The notes under the pieces: model-generated
Seen by the model: the letters and a program-made list of their open reading frames with translations, nothing else
The model's database searches: none
What the model was told of the DNA's origin: nothing
Part shown: positions 2,356 to 48,646 of the stretch, in pieces
How positions within the stretch are numbered: position 1 is the first letter of the stretch
Layout of the letters: every line of letters starts with the position of its first letter
Assembly (NCBI GenBank): GCA_903916255.1
Contig: CAIWVW010000074.1
Span: 1 to 64,000 of the forward strand
DNA: 64,000 nt
From: an uncultured Bacteroidota bacterium
GTDB taxonomy: Bacteria > Bacteroidota > Bacteroidia > JABEUT01
Direction of reading: 5' to 3'
Program-made: the position numbers and the translations under genes

Positions 2356-2778
2356 ATGAGCATCGAAGAAACAGAAAATGAAATTGTGGAAGAGTTTGAA
2401 CTTTTTACCGACTGGATGGAGAAATACGAGCACATTATTGAGATAGGGAATTCTGTGCCAAAGATTGACGAAAAATATAAAGATGAAGCCCATGAAATTA
2501 AAGGTTGCCAAAGCAAGGTATGGCTGCATTCAGAATTGAAAGACGGTAAAATAATTTATTCAGCAGACAGTGATGCCATCATTACAAAAGGCTTGGTAGG
2601 ATTGGTAATACGAGTTTTCTCGGACCATACTCCTGAAGAGATTATTAATGCTGATATTAATTTCATAGATAAGATAGGTTTGCATGAACATTTATCCCCT
2701 ACCCGCTCGAACGGACTTACCGCTATGATAAAACAGATTAAATTTGACGCGCTGGCGCTGCGTACAATTGGAAATTAG
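2356..2778 (+). CDS. sufE: SufE sulfur acceptor
   Basis: Small protein that accepts persulfide sulfur from SufS and stimulates it. 140 aa, normal length. The acceptor cysteine is C51 in EIKGCQSKVW, the SufE signature, and the C-terminal half contains LSPTRSNGL, also conserved. The ATG at 2356 is 3 nt after the sufS stop. The last residues and the TAG stop at 2776-2778 fall inside the left arm of the complementary sequence that encloses the next gene, so the C-terminal few codons may have been added or altered by insertion of that element. Confidence 0.94.
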   Translation: MSIEETENEIVEEFELFTDWMEKYEHIIEIGNSVPKIDEKYKDEAHEIKGCQSKVWLHSELKDGKIIYSADSDAIITKGLVGLVIRVFSDHTPEEIINADINFIDKIGLHEHLSPTRSNGLTAMIKQIKFDALALRTIGN

Positions 2779-3192
2779 AGATTACAAATTAGAAATGAAA
2801 ACAGACAATATAATAGTTGAAAAGAGCTACGCTTTTGCGAAAAGAGTGGTAGGTCTATATCGTTATTTAACAGAAGAGAAAAGAGAGTTTGTATTATCTA
2901 AACAAGTTTTGAGAAGTGGAACGTCTATTGGTGCAAATATAGAAGAGGCTGTTGGAGCCCAATCAGAAAGAGATTTTTATGCAAAATTTAATATCGCTCA
3001 CAAAGAGGCTCGAGAAACCCATTATTGGATAAGATTATTAAGAGATACTGATTATATTACCTCTAAAGAAGCAAAAAGTTTGTTAGATGATTGTTATGAA
3101 ATCATGAAAATTACCGCATCAATCACTAAAACAGTAAAAGCTAAACTTAATTGAATTTCATTTCTAATTTGTAATTTCCAATTTCTAATTAA
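2768..3192. repeat. Complementary arms enclosing the S23-type gene
   Basis: The left arm (2768-2799) and right arm (3157-3181) are reverse complements over 25 bp, the left arm carrying a 7-nt extra segment GAGATTA at 2778-2784. The right arm runs on into a further related word (AATTTCTAATT, 3181-3191). The transcript could fold into a long stem with the small gene in the loop. The start codon at 2795 is inside the left arm and the right arm begins 3 nt after the stop, so the boundaries fit the gene closely. Seen directly; folding and mobility are inference. Confidence 0.75.
2795..3154 (+). CDS. Four helix bundle protein, S23/IVP (TIGR02436) family
   Basis: 119 aa, all-helical. The segment RSGTSIGANIEEAVGAQSE and the later FNIAHKEARETHYW / LLRDTDY pattern are diagnostic of the S23 family, first known as proteins encoded by intervening sequences in 23S rRNA of Leptospira and Coxiella; the Avd protein of diversity-generating retroelements is a structural relative. 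The start chosen is ATG 2795 (MKTDNIIVEK); an upstream in-frame ATG at 2744 would read through the sufE end and does not match the family start. It sits between sufE and sufT in the same direction and is enclosed by complementary arms. Its molecular role is unknown; members form pentameric nucleic-acid-binding-like bundles. No reverse transcriptase or variable repeat lies nearby, so a retroelement role is not supported. Confidence 0.88.
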   Translation: MKTDNIIVEKSYAFAKRVVGLYRYLTEEKREFVLSKQVLRSGTSIGANIEEAVGAQSERDFYAKFNIAHKEARETHYWIRLLRDTDYITSKEAKSLLDDCYEIMKITASITKTVKAKLN

Positions 3193-3196
3193 CAAA

Positions 3197-3526
3197 ATGC
3201 CCGCAGTAATAAATAGCAAAAACGAGGAATTAAGCACGAAAGTAATAGACATGCTTAAAACCTGCTACGACCCTGAAATACCTGTGGATATTTGGGAACT
3301 CGGCCTTATATATGAAGTGAACGTGAACGAAACAAATGATGTTGTAGTTACCATGACCCTCACATCTCCTTCCTGCCCTGTTGCGGAATCATTACCTGTA
3401 GAAGTAGAACAAAAAATAAAAGATTTAGAAGGTGTTACAAGTGCTAAGATAAACTTAACCTTTGACCCGCCCTGGGAAAAAGAAATGATGAGCGAAGTAG
3501 CTCAATTGGAGTTGGGGTTTATGTAA
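3197..3526 (+). CDS. SufT/MIP18-family (DUF59) Fe-S assembly protein
   Basis: 109 aa member of the MIP18/PaaD/DUF59 family, which helps mature Fe-S proteins. The core signature is CYDPEIPVDIWELGLIY near residues 23-39, followed by TLTSPSCPVAESLP with the conserved cysteine and a DPPWEKEMMS ending. It is the last gene of the suf operon, as in many Bacteroidota where sufE, a DUF59 gene and DUF2480 lie together; DUF2480 is found 1.6 kb further on here. It starts 42 nt after the S23-type gene, immediately after the right complementary arm. Assignment to the family is secure; the name sufT is by context. Confidence 0.9.
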   Translation: MPAVINSKNEELSTKVIDMLKTCYDPEIPVDIWELGLIYEVNVNETNDVVVTMTLTSPSCPVAESLPVEVEQKIKDLEGVTSAKINLTFDPPWEKEMMSEVAQLELGFM

Positions 3527-5008: not shown

Positions 5009-5016
5009 CAAATGTA
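5009..5016 (-). promoter_or_regulatory. -7 box of pepT (TACATTTG)
   Basis: On the minus strand this reads TACATTTG, a perfect match to the Bacteroidota -7 consensus TAnnTTTG. Only 4 nt separate it from the pepT ATG, so the transcript would be leaderless or nearly so. No confident -33 TTTG is seen because the upstream region is occupied by the inverted repeat at 5024-5101. Confidence 0.6.
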
Positions 5017-5023
5017 AGAAAAT

Positions 5024-5101
5024 AGTGATAAGTTATGAGTGATAAGAGATAAGCAAAAAACGCATAACATGCTCATCACTTATATCTTATCTCTTATCCC
5101 T
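5024..5101. repeat. Imperfect inverted repeat between divergent promoters
   Basis: The left arm 5024-5054 is made of GATAAG/GATAAGTTATGAG words, and the right arm 5071-5101 contains the complementary CTTATC words. The arms overlap the likely -33 regions of pepT (minus) and the DUF2480 gene (plus). It belongs to the word-permuted repeat class seen at other junctions of this window. Confidence 0.6.
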
Positions 5102-5109
5102 ATTTTGCC

Positions 5110-5117
5110 TATCTTTG
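5110..5117 (+). promoter_or_regulatory. -7 box of DUF2480 gene (TATCTTTG)
   Basis: TATCTTTG matches TAnnTTTG exactly and lies 16 nt before ATG 5134, leaving a leader of only about 10 nt. It mirrors the pepT box on the other side of the inverted repeat. Confidence 0.55.
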
Positions 5118-5133
5118 CGCAGCAAAATTGAAC

Positions 5134-20973: not shown

Positions 20974-21066
20974 GAGATTGCTTCGCGGAGCCTCGCAATG
21001 ACGATTAGGCTTTTGTGAATAGCCAACAGAGCGGTAATACGTCATTGCGAGGAACGAAGCAATCTC
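20974..21066. mobile_element. Small palindromic repeat element (MITE/REP-like)
   Basis: 93 bp. Left arm begins GAGATTGCTTCG and continues to CTCGCAATGACG (20974-21003); the right arm (21040-21066) is its reverse complement, CGTCATTGCGAG then CGAAGCAATCTC, except that the central CGGAGC of the left arm is replaced by 3 nt. A 36-nt loop separates them. The word GTCATTGCGAGGAACGAAGCAATCT is a repeat I recall from many Bacteroidota and other genomes as a non-autonomous palindromic repeat. It carries no gene. It lies in the gap between the divergent acyltransferase and aldehyde dehydrogenase genes. Confidence 0.8.
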
Positions 21067-48534: not shown

Positions 48535-48566
48535 AAAAAGCACCTATGCACACATAGGTGCTTTTT
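48535..48566 (+). terminator. Terminator of tRNA gene
   Basis: 14-bp perfect stem AAAAAGCACCTATG / CATAGGTGCTTTTT with loop CACA, followed by T-run. Begins 3 nt after the tRNA. Confidence 0.9.
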
Positions 48567-48591: not shown

Positions 48592-48646
48592 ATTTTATTA
48601 AACTGAAAAGGAGAACATTCTGTTCTCCTTTTCAGTTTAATAAAAT
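48592..48646. terminator. Perfect 26-bp hairpin between tRNA and SprB-like gene
   Basis: The arms 48592-48617 and 48621-48646 are perfectly complementary, with a 3-nt loop TTC. Inner part reads AAAAGGAGAACA / TGTTCTCCTTTT. A/T-rich ends on both sides give U-tracts in either direction. Serves as bidirectional terminator for the SprB-like gene (minus) and the tRNA side. Confidence 0.85.

Follow-up and report, generated by a model that had tools for sequence, protein, structure and literature searches.

An S23 four-helix-bundle gene boxed by heptad arrays in a bacterial suf operon: a probable mobile element

The 64,000-nt stretch of DNA analysed in the present study (the window; contig CAIWVW010000074.1 of an uncultured Bacteroidota bacterium) carries, between sufE and a sufT-like gene, a small gene of the S23 family enclosed by inverted arms of tandem 7-nt units (heptads). 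We consider it quite probable that this S23 gene is one copy of a compact and very widespread mobile element made up of the S23 gene and its heptads, with a protein that would recognise the heptads and with copying that would be carried out in trans. The arms and the gene move together, the arm word tracks the protein clade, the insertion sites are polymorphic, insertion is in sense at gene junctions, and the protein is constrained. Arrays and hairpins that share these words and lack the gene occur at many places in genomes with S23, and S23 elements look like the source of the 7-base repeats dispersed in many bacterial genomes.

The element at the suf locus

The locus is organised as follows:

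2766..2800, + strand: left arm, five heptads AATTGGA-AATTAGA-GATTACA-AATTAGA-AATGAAA, with the sufE stop and the S23 start codon inside
2795..3154, + strand: S23 / four-helix-bundle gene, 119 aa, PF05635 and TIGR02436
3156..3190, + strand: right arm, inverted heptads TTTCATT-TCTAATT-TGTAATT-TCCAATT-TCTAATT
2356..2778, + strand: sufE (PF02657), upstream host gene, stop within the left arm, orthologues in six congeners
3197..3526, + strand: SUF-associated PF01883 gene (sufT-like), downstream host gene, ATG 7 nt past the right arm

An earlier note, made from the sequence alone, had described complementary arms boxing a small S23 gene between sufE and sufT, and this layout was confirmed by the arms at 2766-2800/3156-3190 and by the family match of the product. 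In profile searches, the 119-aa protein matched PF05635 (E = 3.6e-29, 101.5 bits against a cut-off of 33.8) and TIGR02436 (E = 1.2e-31, 109.2 bits against a cut-off of 24), in both cases above the cut-off and across the protein. The arms, 35 nt each and composed of five slightly decayed AATTNNN units, are complementary at 32/35 positions (91%) in a gapless register. The complementarity had been correctly recognised, its length, given as 25 bp, had not, and the 7-nt bulge attributed to one arm was a real pairing misread: the second pairing solution (2766-2789/3160-3183) arises when the same pairing shifts by one heptad. The placement of the sufE stop (2776-2778) and the S23 ATG (2795) inside the left arm was borne out, and the right arm, thought to begin 3 nt past the S23 stop codon (3154), begins 1 nt after it. 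The element thus described, of approximately 430 nt, consists of a single S23 gene flanked by inverted arrays, each of about five tandem heptads, and of nothing else; PF05635 was the only domain found in it, no transposase gene is present there, and no gene besides S23 is boxed by arms of this kind within the 64-kb window.

Arms, S23 clades and insertion sites

The search for arms at other S23 genes of the same genome, suggested in the earlier note, gave a clear result: inverted arms box 10 of the 11 genes with PF05635 matches in the window's genome (G000), and their words differ from copy to copy (AATTAGT, AAGTTAT, AAGCTAT, AAAAATG, AAAGTAG, GAATATC and so on). The remaining gene (L011, G000:C85), which encodes 196 aa, has a weak PF05635 match and no arms; it could be a domesticated relative or a remote one. 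As the control, the left and right flanks of different elements were exchanged and scored like own pairs. Within the genus, own arm pairs scored at least 34 in 31 of 40 cases, compared to 3.6% for swapped flanks; in the class-wide sample (n = 69), scores of at least 28 were obtained for 72% against 2.6%, and 28 further relatives showed the same arm behaviour. Boxing arms with scores of at least 34 were found at 2 of 359 non-S23 open reading frames (ORFs) versus all 7 S23 genes in 450 kb of the window's genome and one congener. The self-identity of the arms was 0.69 at lag 7 versus 0.19-0.35 at lags 3-6 and 8-13, and the median length was 5.0 units for left arms and 4.6 units for right arms. 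The loci L018, L024, L030, L040 and L002 come from S23 clades that depart from the heptad rule, with units of 8 nt (ATTTGATA) or an irregular spacing (AAAGTT).

Inverted heptad or near-heptad arms also accompanied all 13 plasmid S23 genes (Nostoc, Anabaena, Dolichospermum, Planktothrix, Euhalothece, Bernardetia, Treponema, Monoglobus and Chlorohelix), the best with 39/39 positions matched; in three of the 13, the own arm pair was not above the best swapped flank. Plasmid homologues of the Xanthomonas S23 mostly use G-rich 7-mers, with scores of at least 29 in seven of eight cases and one case without arms. Boxing by heptad arms is a general anatomy of S23 genes and not a peculiarity of one locus: overall, it was seen in about 90% of those in the genus and in about 70 of 79 named relatives from many phyla.

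The arm word varies between elements, agrees between both arms of one element, and groups by clade on the S23 protein tree. Arms were more alike the more identical the proteins were, with Mantel correlations of r = 0.60 for the genus and r = 0.45 for the class (permutation p ≤ 5e-4). When the S23 clade of the window was traced by one scan of named genomes, AATTNNN heptads were found on both sides in 67 of 76 relatives. Carriers beyond Bacteroidota were metagenome-assembled genomes (MAGs) or contigs labelled Chloroflexi, Verrucomicrobiota, Caldithrix, Patescibacteria, a Pseudanabaena and a Methanophagales archaeon, where MAG taxonomic labels may conceal some binning errors; the word and the protein clade recur together across Bacteroidota, Chloroflexi, Verrucomicrobiota, Cyanobacteria, Patescibacteria and the Methanophagales archaeon. 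S23 is under purifying selection, with a median ratio of nonsynonymous to synonymous substitution rates (dN/dS) of ~0.12, which is approximate because many pairs are near saturation.

The comparison of the suf locus and other sites in relatives, also suggested earlier, revealed empty, occupied, lone-array and gene-less-hairpin states, from which we conclude that the element moves; the mobile-element idea of the earlier note is thereby supported, together with the near-universal arms around S23 genes. Of the congeners compared (G001, G004, G009 and G010), G010 (SufE 94% identical) was empty at four of nine G000 S23 sites and occupied at two, with one copy frameshifted; it carried a lone array at the suf site, a gene-less hairpin at another and other sequence at one. 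Further empty orthologous sites were detected in G004, G001 and G009, and the array was absent altogether at the sites orthologous to L002, L006 and L010 in G010 and to L008 in G004. The lone suf-site array of G010 has exactly the sequence found in the arms of a different S23 element of that genome. At the suf site, the S23 proteins of G000 and G004 share only 67% identity, whereas the G004 copy is 84% identical to a G000 copy at a different locus, which suggests that more than one invasion took place at the suf site. An unrelated palindromic insert with CAGAGAACCGCAGAGG / CTCTGCGTTCTCTGCGG occupies the sufE-sufT junction of G005 (L049), so this site takes different elements.

S23 elements occupy stop-start junctions and are read in sense with the operon: among 139 boxed genes, the orientation of the upstream and downstream neighbours relative to S23 was (+,+) in 114, (+,-) in 15, (-,+) in 3 and (-,-) in 1 (114:1), the downstream gene not being called for 6. 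The median distance from the upstream stop to the left arm was 0 nt, with the stop inside the arm in 54 of 112 cases, and that from the right arm to the next ATG was 8 nt. Gene-less arrays showed no strand bias (8 sense, 10 antisense), so the bias of gene-bearing copies probably reflects a requirement for read-through transcription and expression rather than strand-specific insertion. Placement at stop-start junctions, with an arm that often supplies the upstream stop codon, would matter for operon annotation. S23 elements were also noted in plasmid defence operons (L322, hsdS/hsdR; L330, helicase/N-6 methylase; L370, cas10/cmr3-like; L373, cas6/cas4), where defence-gene inference based on neighbourhood could mistake S23 for a defence component.

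Dispersed heptad arrays and gene-less hairpins

The array pattern (AATTNNN)3AATT was counted in each genome, with the reversed pattern as the control. It occurred 45 times in G000, 67 times in G010, 28-69 times in four other congeners and 4 times in the partial genome G001, and it was not found in G009, the only complete S23-free congener; the reversed pattern gave 0-4 matches per congener versus 28-69 for the real one in six. At the class level (148 genomes), S23-free genomes contained a mean of 0.5 arrays (maximum 6), compared to 12.2 (maximum 109) in genomes with at least five S23 genes. The order was represented by one genus in the set, and family- and order-level searches added nothing. 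A subclade comparison, in which AATT arrays were to occur only with window-type S23, failed to separate the genomes cleanly, since AATT words occur in further S23 clades as well. The earlier note had named membership of the arms in genome-wide word repeats as a reason to abandon the element idea; the arms do belong to such repeats, and the repeats depend on S23, so the idea stands.

Among tandem periods of 5-11, only 7 was enriched, with 19 arrays in 332 kb of G000 against 0-3 at other periods; one period-7 array was found in 244 kb of G009. A proposal that heptads act as stop cassettes in all frames (7 = 1 mod 3) fits many words and not AATTACG, and it was therefore not adopted as the reason for period 7. 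A strong inverted partner lay close to 13 of the 43 gene-less array stretches inspected, in most cases at a distance of 18-41 nt, and the others were solo or weakly paired. One gene-less hairpin of the window is probably a non-autonomous S23-type copy:

5016..5118, no strand assigned: heptad hairpin in the intergenic gap between two genes, GTGATAA-GTTATGA-GTGATAA-GAGATAA with an inverted partner

Three heptad arrays occur in succession at L071 (537-1524): the S23 element there is followed by a 161-aa ORF, biotin carboxyl carrier-like to judge from its neighbours, and then by a further array, a structure resembling a composite element.

Mechanism, alternative explanations and related systems

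The S23 protein of the window is homologous to the solved structure 2rld (E = 9.6e-35); the entries 2rld and 2gsc contain five chains each, and the Xanthomonas S23 protein has been described as a toroidal homopentamer (PMC4990558). The numbers of subunits (five) and of heptads (about five) suggest that each subunit takes one heptad, and S23 may be a sequence-specific nucleic-acid-binding ring of this stoichiometry. Such a ring would mark both ends of the element's transcript or single strand, an enzyme acting in trans (a reverse transcriptase, a single-strand transposase or host replication) would copy this molecule into a new junction, and the hairpins and solo arrays would be non-autonomous by-products of the copying. 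The start codon in the arm would allow S23 to repress its own translation. Avd of diversity-generating retroelements, a four-helix-bundle pentamer working with nucleic acid and a reverse transcriptase, is related to S23; such retroelements are defined by a reverse transcriptase together with template and variable repeats. TRAP, a ring protein that binds evenly spaced tandem repeats, one per subunit, provides an analogy only, its fold being unrelated to that of S23 and heptad binding by S23 being a proposal.

Several points weigh against this interpretation. No recognisable catalytic domain is present in the element, and the partner enzyme was not found, no search having been aimed at one; the contact of S23 with its heptads and the stoichiometry of the ring are both inferred. 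Across 9 elements, whose arm ends are fuzzy, target-site duplications did not appear consistently, and arms were not visible at some S23 genes (L011, L117, L127). The class-level association of arrays with S23 (Mann-Whitney p = 6e-7) is not phylogeny-corrected. G098 and G100 are rich in AATT arrays without a close window-type S23, and G148 has six AATT-heptad matches without S23; the listed G148 matches are nearly one sequence and are therefore probably another repeat family.

Among the alternatives, an RNA-level insert resembling the intervening sequences (IVSs) of 23S rRNA, whose stem in the mRNA is cut by RNase III, splitting the operon mRNA and leaving the insertion neutral and its mobility incidental, is unlikely, even if it survives best. 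It shares the gene and the boxed-stem layout with the IVS (PMC4990558), and the RNA-level reading of the earlier note holds insofar as the arm stem forms on in silico folding of 2740-3215 (minimum free energy -103.6 kcal/mol, z = -3.1) and S23 is nearly always co-directional with the upstream gene. That reading gains no support from the arm mismatches, in which G.U-type changes (90) are not favoured over A.C-type changes (115); without such a wobble bias, no selection for sense-RNA pairing is visible, and heptad recognition is favoured over selection for an RNA stem. Moreover, RNA pairing leaves the 7-mer arms, the match of word to clade and the partnerless solo arrays unexplained.

An ordinary transposon or miniature inverted-repeat transposable element (MITE), moved by an unrelated transposase with S23 as cargo, would account for terminal inverted repeats, gene-less hairpins and empty sites; it is improbable in view of arms that vary among copies in one genome and track the S23 clade, the lack of a consistent target duplication in elements with fuzzy arm ends, and the strong constraint on S23. 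We give similarly little credence to a non-mobile regulator, for which the heptads would be operators or RNA sites of S23 autoregulation, spread by homologous recombination between existing arrays (cassette exchange). The ATG within the arm, the homology provided by gene-less hairpins and arrays, and the solo array at the G010 suf site agree with this explanation, but several orthologous sites in congeners are array-free (the L002, L006, L010 and L008 sites described above), and recombination between arrays poorly explains the arrival of the element there. A chance or low-complexity artefact of an AT-rich genome, to which the AT-rich, repetitive arms might point, is refuted for practical purposes by the swapped-flank, other-ORF and reversed-pattern controls.

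With the suf copy read as a mobile element, its nearest relative is the IVS by gene and layout and the REP/RAYT system by logic. IVSs of 23S rRNA are excised from the RNA by RNase III without ligation. Both they and the suf element contain a PF05635 ORF boxed by complementary arms, approximately 430 nt in all, with a stem predicted around the ORF; the IVS lies within an rRNA gene, whereas the suf element lies between sufE and a SUF-associated gene, and elements of the suf type differ from the IVS as described in having tandem heptads as arms, numerous copies in a genome and arrays without a gene. REP/RAYT systems combine repetitive extragenic palindromes with a TnpA-REP transposase and likewise show one protein gene between inverted repeats and many intergenic copies that lack the gene and match the type of the resident protein; unlike the S23 element, with its tandem 7-mers and PF05635 only, they have a Y1 (HUH) transposase and a short palindrome with a GTAG-type tag. 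Insertion sequences and MITEs are defined by a transposase or a terminal repeat common to all copies, and the S23 element has neither. Heptanucleotide repeats include the short tandemly repeated repetitive (STRR) sequences of cyanobacteria. The S23-encoding IVS of Leptospira and Coxiella was described as a selfish, horizontally acquired element (PMC4990558). Heptanucleotide repeats were reported as TAACTGA in Beggiatoaceae (PMC4679880) and as GGGAATC in Xanthomonas and GGGGA(C/T)T in Nostoc (PMC4692102). Compared by description, these families resemble the S23 arrays in being tandem 7-mers of intergenic DNA that frequently lie close to start or stop codons, with inverted pairs in Xanthomonas; PMC4679880 and PMC4692102 tie the repeats to no S23 gene, although the former speculated that a repeat-binding protein might itself be the mobile element. 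No S23-heptad link was found in the open-access literature searched.

On a broader proposal our judgement is evenly balanced: S23 elements may form a distinct class of mobile elements, present in bacteria and in at least one archaeal genome, whose sole gene encodes a ring-shaped protein that recognises heptads; the heptads of cyanobacteria, Beggiatoaceae, Xanthomonas and Bacteroidetes would be their arms and non-autonomous copies, and the rRNA IVS a special case that inserted in rRNA. S23 proteins are widely annotated as "four helix bundle protein" and have solved structures and no known function, and the heptanucleotide repeats of several phyla have no accepted origin; arm-protein covariation and presence/absence polymorphism join the two into one testable question. 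It would be unusual for a mobile element to encode nothing but a small protein without catalytic activity.

Other inverted repeats were observed as well. At L070 (13666-14121), a 152-aa non-S23 ORF lies within 55-56 nt inverted repeats and perhaps represents an insertion sequence. In the window, an inverted repeat at 20974-21066 with CCTCGCAATGACG / CGTCATTGCGAGG ends belongs to a different repeat family, and a perfect or near-perfect 55-nt palindrome (48592-48646) beside a hairpin (48535-48566) likely marks terminators.
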